Counted from the stretch's first letter, positions 55,293 to 61,247 are shown. The stretch is DNA of 64,000 bases from Thermoflexus hugenholtzii JAD2 (GCA_945881915.1 CAMCVW010000011.1:1-64000); one strand, 5' to 3'. A program made the numbers and translations. Notes: a model not told the origin generated them from the sequence alone.

Positions 55293-55461
55293 GTTTGAGG
55301 TTACAGGTTTGAGGTTTGAGGTTACAGGTTACAGGTTACAGGTTACAGGTTACAGGTTACAGGTTACAGGTTACAGGTTACAGGTTTGAGGTTACAGGTT
55401 ACAGGTTTGAGGTTACAGGTTACAGGTTACAGGTTACAGGTTACAGGTTACAGGTTTGAGG
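55291..55461. repeat. heptamer tandem array, AGGTTAC / AGGTTTG units, about 24 copies
   Basis: Uninterrupted 7-bp units fill about 170 bp immediately after the permease stop. AGGTTAC is the main unit and AGGTTTG the variant, mixed in blocks. It is not a CRISPR array and holds no gene. Such short tandem heptamers resemble the STRR repeats known from cyanobacteria. Confidence 0.95.
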
Positions 55462-55568: not shown

Positions 55569-57092
55569 GTGCCAACGCATCTCGTCGCCATTCTGGCGGA
55601 CCAGCTTCTGCTCGAGCATCCTGCCTTGATCCACGCCCAGACGCTGGCGCCCAAAACCGACATACAGGTGGTGTTGGTCGAGAGTCAAGCGCGCCTGCAA
55701 TTGCGCCCCTACCAGCGCCACAAACTCGTGTTGGTGCTCAGTGCACTGCGACATTATGCGGCTGCGTTGCGTGCAGACGGCTGGCAGGTGACGCTGATTG
55801 CGGCCGCGAGTTGGCGCGCCGGACTCCTACACACGTGTGCACAGTTCAACCCAGACAGCATCATCACGATGGCCGGCGCCGAATACAACGCCCGCCGTGC
55901 CCAGGAGCGTTGGTCGTCGTGGCTCGGGCGGGCGGTCACCGTACTGCCCAATCGGCAGTTCCTGGCGGCGGATGTGCCGGCGACCGGTACCAAGCGGCAG
56001 ACGATGGAGTCTTTCTATCGCATGATGCGCGTGCGCTACCAATTGCTGCTCGAGGCAGATGGCTCGCCGGTCGGTGGGAGCTGGAACTACGACGCCGAAA
56101 ACCGCAAACCATTGCCCAAACACACCCCCATCCCGCTGGTCCAGCGCTACCTGCCGGACGAGCTGACCCTGCAGGTTATTGCCGATGTCGCGGCATATCC
56201 ACAGACATACGGCGACGCCTCGACGTTCGGTCTGGCAGTCACGCACGCGCAGGCAGCAGATGCATTAGCGCGGTTTATCCGCGAGCGCTTGCCGGACTTT
56301 GGGCGCTACGAAGACGCGATGGCGGCAGACGAGGACGTGCTGTTCCACTCGCTGTTGTCGCCGTACCTCAACCTCGGGTTGCTCGATCCACTGACCTGCG
56401 CCCGCGCCGCCGAGGCCGCCTACCACGCCGGATTGGCTCCACTCGCCGCAGTAGAAGGATTTGTACGCCAAATCGTCGGCTGGCGCGAGTACATGTACCG
56501 CCGCTATTGGGAATTGATGCCCGAGCTGCGCACCATGAACGCGTGGGCTGCCACACGCCCGTTGCCAGAATGGTTTTGGCAGGGGCAGAGCGGGATGCAC
56601 TGCCTCGACACAGTCATCGCGCGCGTCTGGCGCACGGGCTATACGCATCACATCGAGCGCTTGATGATCCTGACCAACTTCTGTACGTTGGCGGGCATCG
56701 ACCCGGTCGCGGTGAATGAGTGGTTCTTGGCAGGGTATATTGATGCATACGACTGGGTGATGTGGCCCAACGTGAGTGGCATGGGGCTCAACGCCGACGG
56801 TGGGTTGATTGCCACCAAGCCGTATATTTCGTCCGGGGCCTACATCAAGCGGATGAGTAACTACTGCGCTGGGTGTCGCTACGACCCCGCGGTACGGACG
56901 GGACCCGATGCGTGCCCGTATACAATGCTGTACTGGAATTTTCTGCTCACGCACCAACCCCGCCTGCAAGCAAACCCACGCATGGGACCGGCAGTACTCG
57001 GTTTGCGCCACCTCGATGATGCCCAGCGCGGTGACATCCAAACCCAGGCAGTGATTTGGCTACAACGCCTCAGCGAAGGAACCAGCGCATGA
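55569..57092 (+). CDS. iron-sulfur bacterial photolyase/cryptochrome (FeS-BCP, PhrB-like)
   Basis: A 507-residue flavoprotein of the prokaryotic (6-4) photolyase group, which repairs UV (6-4) photoproducts with light. The N-terminal Rossmann-like antenna domain begins HLVAILADQLLLEHPAL. The FAD domain has WNYDAENRKPLPK, VGWREYMYRRYWELMP and YDWVMWPNVSGMGL. Four cysteines (345, 433, 436 and 449) are spaced exactly as the cluster ligands I know from PhrB (88, 3 and 13 apart). A GTG start at 55569 is used; no good ribosome binding site is seen. Its stop overlaps the next gene (ATGA). Confidence 0.93.
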   Translation: MPTHLVAILADQLLLEHPALIHAQTLAPKTDIQVVLVESQARLQLRPYQRHKLVLVLSALRHYAAALRADGWQVTLIAAASWRAGLLHTCAQFNPDSIITMAGAEYNARRAQERWSSWLGRAVTVLPNRQFLAADVPATGTKRQTMESFYRMMRVRYQLLLEADGSPVGGSWNYDAENRKPLPKHTPIPLVQRYLPDELTLQVIADVAAYPQTYGDASTFGLAVTHAQAADALARFIRERLPDFGRYEDAMAADEDVLFHSLLSPYLNLGLLDPLTCARAAEAAYHAGLAPLAAVEGFVRQIVGWREYMYRRYWELMPELRTMNAWAATRPLPEWFWQGQSGMHCLDTVIARVWRTGYTHHIERLMILTNFCTLAGIDPVAVNEWFLAGYIDAYDWVMWPNVSGMGLNADGGLIATKPYISSGAYIKRMSNYCAGCRYDPAVRTGPDACPYTMLYWNFLLTHQPRLQANPRMGPAVLGLRHLDDAQRGDIQTQAVIWLQRLSEGTSA

Positions 57093-57883
57093 CCGATACG
57101 CCATTACGACGCACCTTTGCCGACCGTGCTGAACTCATTGCGTACATTCAGACGACGTTTGCCGATGTGGTCGGTGACGACGCGGACGTATCAGACATGC
57201 GCGGCGGGCAGGCAGCTGCCCTGGCCGCACTGGCAACGATTGATCCGGTGCGCTATGCGCAGACGCGCAATCATCTGACCGGCGCCGTGACCGGATTGAG
57301 CCCGTACATCCGGCACGGCGTGCTGTCGCTGGCACAGGTGCGTGATGCGGTATTGGCTCGGGTCCCGAGGGCGACTGACGCCGAAAAACTGCTCAGCGAG
57401 CTCGCCTGGCGCGACTACTGGCAACGCGTCTATGCAGCCATCGGTGACGGCATCTGGTATGACCGTGAGCCCTACAAAACCGGGCACCGCGCTGATTCGT
57501 ATGCCAAAAAACTCCCCGATGACATCCGCGCGGGCGAAACAGGGCTCGCGTGTATCGATGGATTCGTGGCAGAATTGCATACCACTGGGTACCTGCATAA
57601 TCATGCACGCATGTGGCTGGCGGCCTATGTGGTGCATTGGCGGCGGGTGCGCTGGCAGGCTGGTGCGCGCTGGTTTTTGCAACATTTACTCGACGGTGAT
57701 CCTGCCAGTAACAACTTATCGTGGCAGTGGATTGCCAGTACGTTCAGCCATAAACCGTATATTTTCAATAAAGAAAATCTGCAGCGTTATACTGAAAATA
57801 TCTACTGCAAACATTGCCCTTTGCGTCATGCATGCCCATTGGATGAGACATATGAGCAAATAACGGAACAATTATTCAAATAA
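57089..57883 (+). CDS. stand-alone photolyase FAD-binding domain protein
   Basis: A 264-residue protein that corresponds only to the C-terminal helical FAD domain of photolyases/cryptochromes. LTGAVTGLSPYIRHGVLSLA, LLSELAWRDYWQRVYAAIG, TGYLHNHARMWLAAYVVHW and DGDPASNNLSWQWIASTFS are hallmark motifs; no N-terminal antenna domain precedes them. A cysteine cluster sits at the C terminus (Cys240, 243 and 249 in YCKHCPLRHACP). It overlaps the FeS photolyase stop by 4 bp. A matching antenna-only protein lies 2.9 kb downstream. Activity (repair or signalling) unknown. Confidence 0.9.
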   Translation: MTDTPLRRTFADRAELIAYIQTTFADVVGDDADVSDMRGGQAAALAALATIDPVRYAQTRNHLTGAVTGLSPYIRHGVLSLAQVRDAVLARVPRATDAEKLLSELAWRDYWQRVYAAIGDGIWYDREPYKTGHRADSYAKKLPDDIRAGETGLACIDGFVAELHTTGYLHNHARMWLAAYVVHWRRVRWQAGARWFLQHLLDGDPASNNLSWQWIASTFSHKPYIFNKENLQRYTENIYCKHCPLRHACPLDETYEQITEQLFK

Positions 57884-58266
57884 ACGAGACTAAATCGCTT
57901 CCATGCATACATAAAAACATTGTTTTCCTGTGATTCTTTGTAGAGAATGAATTGCTCCATTCAAATATACAAACGCATACAAGAGCATTTGCTATGAGGC
58001 GATTATTTCTCTTTTTCTGAGCAGTTATCGGTATTCGGTTTGCCTGTTCAGAGTACAGGAGCGCGTTGGACTCCGTTCTGTCGCTGCGTCGCGACTCAGT
58101 CGATCGCCACTGATTTCGCTCGGCAGTGAGCCTTCTCCGCTGATGACCGGAGCTAATCAAATGCTGGGGTGCCAATCGATGTGGGCAATACCAATGCATA
58201 TGGTGCTGATGCAGCGAAGCGGGCGCAGGTCTGCCGGCCGTTACCAGTAAGCAATCAGCCACATAT
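57884..58266. other. non-coding decayed stretch
   Basis: No supported gene. Many stops in all frames and a drop in GC. A reading GVPIDVGNTNAYGADAAK in plus frame near 58163-58220 may be another eroded RCC1 unit, but this is weak. Confidence 0.4.
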
Positions 58267-58345
58267 AGCAGCGCTGGCTATGGAGCTTCTTTGGGAACAA
58301 TGGGCGATGATCTGCCCATTGTTGGCCTCGATGAGCTTGGAGCAA
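58267..58345 (+). pseudogene. RCC1-repeat fragment (remnant)
   Basis: The plus frame reads GYGASLGTMGDDLPIVGL, close to the RCC1-type blade sequence (xYGxxLGxMGDxLPxVxLG). It is without start, neighbouring blades or plausible full domain, so it is taken as a gene remnant. The frame continues open to 58505 without RCC1 likeness. Confidence 0.45.
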
Positions 58346-58575
58346 CACCCGCTGCACGCAACACCCGCGCATCCAGCCAAACCCCAGTAGCGGCATCGAC
58401 ACGCACAAAGATAGCCACCCCCCGCGAACACACAGCAGAACTCCCACCAAGACCCAGACACTCACGCGAAGCAAGACTCAAAAGAAGTCATATGCACCCA
58501 CGATGAACCCCACGTTCTCACCAACCCCAACCATTCCATTGGCTTGTCTAGATGGTCAAAAAATGCTGGGACTCA

Positions 58576-58607
58576 CCGCACGCGCCGCAGCGCGTGCGGT
58601 TTTTTTT
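58576..58607 (+). terminator. terminator, first copy of a repeated hairpin
   Basis: CCGCACGCGC, loop CGCA, GCGCGTGCGG, then eight T. The same hairpin recurs at 59838. No intact gene precedes it. The next 870 bp, to 59479, hold no supported gene and are AT-rich from about 59030 to 59400. Confidence 0.75.
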
Positions 58608-59479
58608 GTGCAAGATATGATCCGTTGAACGGTGTTCGTACATGTCTCTATTCAGCGACCGAATACGAAAATGTTCGTCACGAACCATCCCGTTACGAAA
58701 ATGCCAACGACAAAACTGACAACAGCACTGGTACACACTGGATTCCTCGTGGTGCATACCTGTCGAATGGTAGATACACCACCATAATGGGCAAAAACAG
58801 TGTGCGCATAGCAACGGCGATTTCACACGGTAGCTGCGCTTTCGCCTGTAGGCGTGACATCAAGATTCACACTGCATCCGGTACTCCGCCCCGCTGTGAC
58901 CATGTCACGTTCGGGGTGTTGCGATGCATACATGCCCGAGAACGATGATCGCATCAGTGCATCGGGTAATACAGAGTAGTACGTTGCGTCTGGCACTACG
59001 AGAACCCACAGAATGAGAGGCATGGTGTGTAGGAAAAATACGGATTCTGCCGACTTTTTACAAAAATTGATTGAATTATATATAAAAATTATATTGACAG
59101 GTAAATCAAATTGTGATTCCCTGAAACTGCAATTGCTATCCAACACATAGATACGGCGCAGCGTACCGAACCCGGAGAGTGCATATTCGCAATCAGTAGC
59201 CTACCGTGCACGACGAAACACTGAAGAAAAAGACAATATACATTCCACTGTTGATTTACTGAATGTTTTATTCATAATTTGATTTGAATATATGTGTTTT
59301 ATTCTTGCCAAATACGGTAAATAGAACATTATTATCGTAGATAATTTGGAGAGAATGGTTTTGTATAATCTGCATAGTTTGATTTATATGAACATTTGCG
59401 AGAGCACGCAGTACGGTAGCGAACGTTCGCGCACGATGTGCACGACGTTTGAGTCTTTTCATACGGAAGAAATCAACCC

Positions 59480-59807
59480 ATGCAATAGTTTTTTCACCGC
59501 GCGCTATTTCGCCGCCTCCTTGCGATCCTTGCGGTCATCTTGGTGCTGTACCGAGTGACGACTGCTGCAGCGTGGGACGCAGGCAATCACCGCTGCGCCG
59601 CGGTTGAGTCCGTCTCTAATGGTAGCGGCAGGCCCAACCTATACCTACACGGTACTGACGAATGGGACACTCAAATGCTGGAGGCAGAATTTTTACGGGC
59701 AATTAGGACTCGGCAATGTGAACGACTACGGTAAAAACAGCAACCTAGTAGGTACCGGCTGCAACCGCAACTCCTTCACCGACTCCGTAGAAAATTCGAG
59801 GACGTAA
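59480..59807 (+). pseudogene. secreted RCC1-repeat protein, broken
   Basis: GGAAGAAATCAACCC and ATG at 59480 begin a reading frame whose third codon is TAG. Past this stop the frame encodes an apparent signal peptide (FFHRALFRRLLAILAVILVL, then YRVTTAAAWDAGNH). In the next frame an RCC1 blade follows: VAAGPTYTYTVLTNGTLK and CWRQNFYGQLGLGNVNDYG. So at least one nonsense and one frameshift mutation are present. A terminator follows at 59838. Confidence 0.7.
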
Positions 59808-59837
59808 TTTCTGAATTAATGAAAAAAACACCCTCAC

Positions 59838-59866
59838 TGCACGCGCCGCAGCGCGTGCGGTTTTCT
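59838..59866 (+). terminator. terminator, second copy of the repeated hairpin
   Basis: TGCACGCGC, CGCA, GCGCGTGCGG, then TTTTCTCT. Nearly identical to 58576-58607; it would end the RCC1 pseudogene transcript. Confidence 0.75.
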
Positions 59867-59943
59867 CTGTATACTTCCCAACCCGTATCATTCCTCATCT
59901 GCACTTGGTAAAATACACAATAACCGCGAAAAGAGATCAACCT

Positions 59944-60804
59944 GTGCCAGCAGACCGTGCCATCCTGACATCCTACAACCTCGACGATGTCGTCGTCGCC
60001 TTCGCTGCCCAGCAACGGCCATTGCGGCGCATCATCGTGCGCGCATTGGCATGGCTCCCGGCCCGCCGCTTGGCACAGACGTTGGTCGAGGCAGATGGTT
60101 TGGCCGGCAAGGGCGACATCGTCGCTGCCTGCGCAGTGTTGGTGCAGCGCATAGCCGGCACTGCAGACATCATCGGGGCGGTCCAGATTTCCGCGACCGG
60201 CGCTGTGGTGTGTGTGGCCAACCATCCGGGTTTGGTCGACGTCGCCGCGCTGGTGGTGGCCATCGGTCGTCCTGACATCCGCATCATCGCGGCAGATCGC
60301 CCGCTGTTGCGGGCACTGCCGGGCATTACCCAATACCTCATCACGGTCCCCGAATCTGGTCCTGGTCGGGCACATGCCCTGCGCGCGGGGGTACGTCATC
60401 TGCGGGCGGGCGGGGCGTTGCTGACATTCCCGGCGGGGCGCATCGAGCCGGACCCAGCGGTCCACAGCGATGCCCATGCAACTTTGCCACTCTGGTCCGA
60501 TATGCCGGCGACCCTGCGCCGGGCAGTGCCTGGAGTGCCGTTCGTGGCCATGCTGGCTAGCGGCGTCACGTCAGCCCGCGCACTGTATAACCTTCTGGTG
60601 CAACGGGTCCGCGTGCGACGCGATCGCGAATGGCTGGCAGCGACGTTGCAGCTCATCATCCCCTGGTACAAGGCACGGGTGGTGCGTGTGCGGGTCGCGC
60701 AGGTTGCTCCGGACGCAGCGGTGCAGGATGTGATGTATGGTCTGATTACGACGGAACGCGCAGCCCGTGGCTTGTCGCTCCCTGCAGCCTTGGAGGACAA
60801 ATGA
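59944..60804 (+). CDS. 1-acyl-glycerol-3-phosphate acyltransferase-like protein
   Basis: A 286-residue protein with the PlsC acyltransferase signature NHPGLVDVAALV (His-x4-Asp, block I) and FPAGRIEPDP (block III). It probably transfers a fatty acyl chain to a lipid or other acceptor at the membrane. The GTG at 59944 follows AAAAGAGATCAACCT; a TAAAAT -10-like box lies upstream (59908). Its stop overlaps the next gene's ATG (ATGA), so the two are coupled. Confidence 0.8.
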   Translation: MPADRAILTSYNLDDVVVAFAAQQRPLRRIIVRALAWLPARRLAQTLVEADGLAGKGDIVAACAVLVQRIAGTADIIGAVQISATGAVVCVANHPGLVDVAALVVAIGRPDIRIIAADRPLLRALPGITQYLITVPESGPGRAHALRAGVRHLRAGGALLTFPAGRIEPDPAVHSDAHATLPLWSDMPATLRRAVPGVPFVAMLASGVTSARALYNLLVQRVRVRRDREWLAATLQLIIPWYKARVVRVRVAQVAPDAAVQDVMYGLITTERAARGLSLPAALEDK

Positions 60805-61247
60805 GGAGCATCGTCTGGATTCATGCAGATTGTCTGCGCCGCGACTGTGCGGCCTTCCGCGAATACCCCGCCGTACCGGCGTTGTTCGTCTGGGACGACG
60901 TGGTGTTGCGCGGGTATGGGTTGAGCCTCAAGCGCATGGTTTTTTTGTATGAATGCCTGCTCGACCTCGATGTGGCCATATATCGCGGGGATGTGGCGAC
61001 AGAGGTGCGGGCATTTGCAGTCCTGCATGCGGCAACGACCATCGTCACCATGGGCACCCCCGCCCCGCGCTGTGCCACGATTGTGGCAGATTTGCGGACG
61101 ACCCACACGGTCGAAGTGCTGGCAGACGAGCCATTTGCGGAAGTGCCCGATGGGGTCGACATCAAACGATTTTCGCGGTTTTGGGGGAGCATCCGGCCAC
61201 AGGTGGTACGGCAACCGTTGCAGCGCGGCTTATTCGACGAGCGGTGA
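60801..61247 (+). CDS. stand-alone photolyase antenna-like (N-terminal) domain protein
   Basis: A 148-residue protein that looks like the N-terminal alpha/beta domain of DNA photolyases alone. SIVWIHADCLRRDCAAF parallels the usual VWFRxDLRxxDNPAL start; VPALFVWDDVVLRGYGLS gives the next strand, and LKRMVFLYECLLDLDVAIYR the helix. It ends IKRFSRFWGSIRP, with no FAD domain. It may bind an antenna pigment or simply partner the FAD-domain protein at 57089. It overlaps the acyltransferase by 4 bp. Its 3' end overlaps a convergent gene by 18 bp. Confidence 0.7.
   Translation: MRSIVWIHADCLRRDCAAFREYPAVPALFVWDDVVLRGYGLSLKRMVFLYECLLDLDVAIYRGDVATEVRAFAVLHAATTIVTMGTPAPRCATIVADLRTTHTVEVLADEPFAEVPDGVDIKRFSRFWGSIRPQVVRQPLQRGLFDER

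Follow-up and report, generated by a model that had tools for sequence, protein, structure and literature searches.

Photolyases split into separately encoded catalytic and antenna halves are already known from marine cyanobacteria. The phr4/phr5 pair was described in marine Synechococcus and a fused form, phr6, in two Cyanobium; a heterodimer, or else frameshifting, was proposed for Phr4/Phr5, loss of phr4/phr5 lowers UV-C survival, and the pair protects E. coli from UV-C (PMC9426592). Short photolyase-like (SPL) proteins are a published class (Xu et al. 2021, PMID 34175934, cited in PMC9178010 and PMC9649867), and repair of cyclobutane pyrimidine dimers (CPDs) is reported for the Rhodococcus SPL (cited in PMC9649867). 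In NewPHL, or Phr7, a flavin adenine dinucleotide (FAD)-binding domain is followed by a Z-domain on one chain (Emmerich et al. 2020, cited in PMC9426592). Here, we analyze a split pair of the Phr4/Phr5 kind in a 64,000-nucleotide stretch of DNA assigned to Thermoflexus hugenholtzii JAD2 (GCA_945881915.1 CAMCVW010000011.1:1-64000; hereafter the window); what is new is the phylum, Chloroflexota, and the gene arrangement. The genome bin (63 contigs, 3.09-Mb) has freshwater metagenome-assembled genomes of Roseiflexaceae (Chloroflexota) as its closest named relatives. Drawing on observed domain identities, co-occurrence, conserved gene order, fusions and conserved residues, we consider it very probable that a single photolyase of the SPL/Phr4-Phr5 type is made up of these two proteins, one as its catalytic and the other as its antenna subunit:

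57089..57883, plus strand: Phr4/SPL, FAD-binding catalytic domain only, 264 residues plus stop codon (Pfam, AlphaFold2 model, invariant cysteines)
60801..61247, plus strand: Phr5, N-terminal alpha/beta antenna domain only, 148 residues plus stop codon (fold, family profile, Pfam matches of relatives)

As in marine Synechococcus, an FAD-only gene lies upstream of an antenna-only gene. The open reading frame of the FAD half (57089-57880, plus strand, 264 residues) is intact and matches Pfam FAD_binding_7 with an E value of 3e-24, while the N-terminal photolyase domain is absent, in agreement with the original prediction that this protein is the FAD half only. It aligns with the C-terminal two thirds of the A. 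nidulans and E. coli photolyases, and its AlphaFold2 model (pLDDT 84) covers the helical domain only, matching the E. coli, A. nidulans, PhrB and V. cholerae photolyases with VIA Z 14.8-15.7. The protein has the make-up of an SPL, namely an FAD domain of about 260-290 residues without the N-terminal alpha/beta domain, and also the four conserved cysteines for an Fe-S cluster that mark a subset of the class. Like the SPL proteins, it consists of one FAD domain related closely to the class I/III CPD photolyases; the difference is that a partner gene of its own encodes the antenna domain here. The Fe-S cysteines C155, C240, C243 and C249 are invariant in all 42 aligned homologues, and Phr4 probably carries a [4Fe-4S] cluster. 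Their spacing (85, 3, 6) is identical to that of C169, C254, C257 and C263 in RS9916 Phr4 (PMC9426592).

Three other photolyase types resemble Phr4 in part. NewPHL/Phr7 shares the inverted topology with the FAD domain first but is one chain with a Z-domain; we rejected this identity for Phr4, whose chain contains the four cysteines and does not extend beyond the FAD domain, and the Ruegeria NewPHL example has no antenna-profile match and none of the Fe-S cysteines. The prokaryotic (6-4) photolyases of the FeS-BCP/PhrB type, to which the full-length neighboring gene belongs, also have the Fe-S cysteines, but they join two domains in the normal order on one chain and are distant from Phr4 in an FAD-domain tree with long branches. 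The class I CPD photolyases of E. coli and A. nidulans are the nearest solved sequence relatives and share the lesion-contact and FAD-site residues, whereas their antenna domain is N-terminal on the same chain and they have no Fe-S cluster. By alignment to the A. nidulans photolyase, Phr4 retains E104, W107, R108, N171, M175, N208, W212, W214 and W189, which in class I CPD photolyases surround the FAD and the lesion; of these, E104, W107, R108, N171, M175 and W214 are CPD-type contact residues. Two sites occupied by His in eukaryotic 6-4 photolyases are N and M in Phr4. Because the class I residues are kept and N and M replace the 6-4 His pair, cyclobutane dimers are the more likely predicted substrate over 6-4 products, in keeping with the CPD repair reported for the Rhodococcus SPL.

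The frame of the antenna half (60801-61244, plus strand, 148 residues) is intact as well. The protein itself has no significant match in Pfam or NCBIfam and does not reach the PF00875 gathering cut-off; the best hits of sequence searches against PDB, Pfam and NCBIfam are weak ones to a cryptochrome N-terminus (E 0.049-0.08). Three independent tests agree on its identity. PF00875 (DNA_photolyase) is matched by 18 of 21 aligned relatives, with a best E value of 1.5e-5. The AlphaFold2 model (pLDDT 81) resembles the N-terminal domains of photolyases and cryptochromes in Foldseek (E 7.5e-6) and matches R. sphaeroides CryB with VIA Z 12.7 and a root-mean-square deviation of 2.1 over 112 residues; each of its 24 best structural matches is a photolyase or a cryptochrome. 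Finally, in the full-length class I photolyase that the genome itself encodes, residues 26-140 are matched by the family profile (E 7.4e-10). The 148-residue protein is thus a photolyase N-terminal antenna domain alone, with the fold on which the original assignment depended. Its C-terminal end is formed by a conserved FSRYW/FSAFW motif which, judged by eye, resembles the start of the interdomain linker in class I photolyases, a likeness that suggests that the two chains would add up to one entire photolyase divided at its linker. As a candidate pigment, 8-hydroxy-5-deazaflavin (8-HDF) was rejected: CofH is required for its synthesis and was not found in the genome (CofG was not searched for), which leaves folate, flavin, lumazine or no pigment.

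After photolyases and cryptochromes, the best fold match of Phr5 is the universal stress protein fold (Z 10.4). This would suit a different explanation, in which Phr4 works alone as an SPL photolyase and Phr5, a small protein that binds a nucleotide or a pigment, acts independently of it, for example in stress or sensing, and shares only a regulon with it. However, in sequence Phr5 is closest to the N-terminal domains of photolyases, and we regard an independent Phr5 as unlikely, also in view of how the two genes are distributed. Among 400 Chloroflexota genomes (FAD half counted at E < 1e-50), 25 have both halves, one the FAD half only, one the antenna half only and 373 neither, such that each half is found in 26 genomes (Fisher p 2e-37, ignoring shared ancestry). 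The corresponding counts in 244 cyanobacterial genomes are 47, 1, 0 and 196 (p 9e-50, ignoring shared ancestry), the single exception (G482) being a longer protein resembling NewPHL. The co-occurrence that the original prediction called for is present: the antenna half accompanies the FAD half in 25 of 26 Chloroflexota and 47 of 48 cyanobacteria.

The 47 cyanobacterial pairs lie within 600 bp of each other in 28 cases, within 10 kb in 4, and unlinked or on different contigs in 15; therefore, linkage alone is insufficient to explain the co-occurrence. That the halves are unlinked in a third of cyanobacteria speaks for an independent Phr5, but their near-perfect co-occurrence even there speaks against it. 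As these 15 genomes show, immediate adjacency does not define the family. The window, too, has the antenna-only partner downstream on the same strand and not immediately adjacent: 2,920 bp separate the FAD stop codon from the antenna start, whereas the Synechococcus halves are seven base pairs apart (PMC9426592). Among the 80 best genome loci, the flank retrieved contains the antenna gene downstream on the same strand in 51; whole-genome searches of 33 genomes in which it was distant or missing from the flank recovered it in every one, each time encoded as a short frame of its own. The pair also occurs in Acidobacteriota (L068, L122) and in one Alphaproteobacterium (L139), and a search of plasmids gave matches in Deinococcus, Alphaproteobacteria and Persicobacter only.

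Fusions provide a further line of evidence against an independent Phr5. In three Deinococcus plasmid proteins (456, 472 and 457 residues), whose sole annotation is 'FAD-binding domain-containing protein', the antenna domain follows the FAD domain (WP_151845379.1 is a Deinococcus example), and frames of 447 and 450 residues with the same order occur in two Chloroflexota from another family, thus joining the two domains that had been proposed to form one complex. In Deinococcus sp. QL22, the halves are overlapping neighboring genes, the antenna gene being annotated as 'hypothetical protein'. The domain order of the fusions is opposite to that of ordinary photolyases, as in the FAD-first Phr6 (PMC9426592); the FAD-domain tree, with its long branches, decides neither between one and two fusion origins nor the position of the root. 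The fusions also bear on whether Phr5 is the antenna of another photolyase, FeS-BCP or class I, and not mainly of Phr4. The FeS-BCP gene adjoins phr4 in this family and a class I photolyase is also encoded in the genome, but both enzymes have N-terminal domains of their own, genomes that lack Phr5 commonly encode a class I photolyase, and the fusions pair Phr5 with Phr4-type domains only, making such a role for Phr5 highly improbable.

Both genes are under purifying selection, with ratios of nonsynonymous to synonymous substitution rates (dN/dS) of 0.10-0.15 against congeners. On this ground we rejected gene decay, which is refuted as far as sequence goes. A pair that is the decaying remnant of a single broken photolyase gene would fit the 2.9 kb gap, which includes non-coding DNA, and the frameshifted FAD gene of the relative G045; yet the catalytic and Fe-S residues are invariant, breaking a normal photolyase would leave the halves in the reverse order, without the FAD half first, and the same split is found in several phyla. 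We give the remnant explanation almost no credence. In G045 (L186, C1:2565000-2567300; a complete single contig of 5,258,541 bp), the FAD half consists of two overlapping frames of 195 and 171 residues, owing either to a frameshift or to a sequencing error, and an intact antenna gene adjoins them.

The Phr4-Phr5 complex itself, like its antenna chromophore, energy transfer and substrate, is inferred. Several points weigh against a two-subunit photolyase. One Chloroflexota genome (G033) has an antenna gene with the FAD half undetected. In 2021, Xu et al. reportedly found that the lone Rhodococcus SPL repairs CPDs; the antenna chain may therefore be dispensable for catalysis, a point that also favors a self-sufficient Phr4. 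Moreover, 6-4 and not CPD activity was predicted for Phr4 from its Fe-S cysteines (PMC9426592). The orphan antenna-only gene of G033 (L183:1566-2036, on contig C126) encodes 157 residues, and the genome belongs to the same taxonomic order.

As a plausible mechanism for the two-subunit enzyme, Phr4 with FAD and the probable [4Fe-4S] cluster would repair UV-damaged DNA, more likely CPDs. Phr5 would probably dock on Phr4 at the site held by the N-terminal domain in a normal photolyase and, if pigmented, would pass excitation energy to the FAD of Phr4. If Phr4 is a CPD enzyme, the neighboring FeS-BCP enzyme would handle 6-4 products.

Judged by sequence, SPLs from four or more phyla appear to have their antenna provided in trans, a breadth that we did not find on record. 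The original prediction knew of no function for such short photolyase-family proteins, which is outdated, as both SPL and Phr4/Phr5 have been published (PMC9426592; PMC9178010; PMC9649867). Our literature search for phr4 and phr5 together returned PMC9426592 only, and no published statement that SPLs generally have an antenna partner was found; much literature lies outside this search, and we make no claim to priority. We put forward, as a tentative proposal whose chances we see as slightly short of even, that SPLs of the whole class have an antenna encoded by a gene of its own, in most cases unannotated; each SPL would then be one half of a photolyase, heterodimeric or, where fused, domain-swapped, instead of an antenna-less relic. 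If so, the Rhodococcus SPL assayed in vitro would either have a partner too or represent a derived loss, and function tests of a lone SPL would have examined half an enzyme. Given the apparent absence of an antenna domain, SPLs have been proposed as ancestral to every photolyase and cryptochrome; this argument would weaken if SPLs of Cyanobacteriota, Chloroflexota, Deinococcota, Acidobacteriota and Pseudomonadota have their antenna encoded in trans. In a two-chain photolyase, the antenna could be added or removed at will, so that one could measure what light harvesting is worth for DNA repair. This pattern of antennas in trans across phyla is the part that merits specialist attention.

The remaining features of the locus are as follows:

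55569..57092, plus strand: complete FeS-BCP type photolyase, a predicted 6-4 photolyase (Pfam DPRP, 6.9e-47)
57884..59904, no strand: spacer of ~2.0 kb, single copy, without an intact gene, with an RCC1-like fragment and two terminator-like hairpins
59905..60804, plus strand: intact acyltransferase, PlsC/OlsF-like (NCBIfam OlsF, 6e-11)

Both halves of the pair overlap an upstream neighbor, in which the window differs from Synechococcus: the stop codon of the FeS-BCP gene overlaps the phr4 start (ATGA), making phr4 the second gene of a pair, and that of the acyltransferase gene overlaps the phr5 start, again as ATGA. The OlsF match covers the acyltransferase part and scores under the curated cut-off. 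The original prediction had recognized the split pair but missed both overlapping genes, and its placement of the halves on the same strand, 2.9 kb apart, stands; its description of the DNA between them as decayed holds only in part, the acyltransferase at 59905-60804 being intact.

Many loci of Roseiflexaceae and Chloroflexaceae have the FeS-BCP gene immediately 5' of phr4. The FAD gene directly precedes the antenna gene in four congeners (G002, G005, G009 and G010); the acyltransferase gene takes that place in five others, as in the window, and in the Roseiflexus-like genomes g4 and g6 the order is FAD, acyltransferase, antenna. In other congeners, such as G006 (L061), the halves are on separate contigs, either rearranged or with no less than 4.8 kb between them. 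From these orders, the locus in the window is one form of a conserved cluster.

The spacer is single copy in the genome, its one match elsewhere being of 33 bp (contig C8), and we rejected a mobile element between the halves. The spacer contains two copies, 92% identical, of a terminator-like GC-rich hairpin followed by a T run (58572-58609 and 59833-59870), and an RCC1-like repeat protein fragment at 59604-59807 (Pfam E 0.0017) that is probably a gene remnant. Elsewhere in the same genome (L180, G000:C5:46300-48900), a 482-residue frame encodes the full-length class I photolyase; together with the FeS-BCP enzyme and the split pair, the genome therefore has three photolyase systems. Just 5' of the FeS-BCP gene, a tandem array (55298-55456) comprises 22.7 copies of the 7-bp unit AGGTTAC, with some variants.
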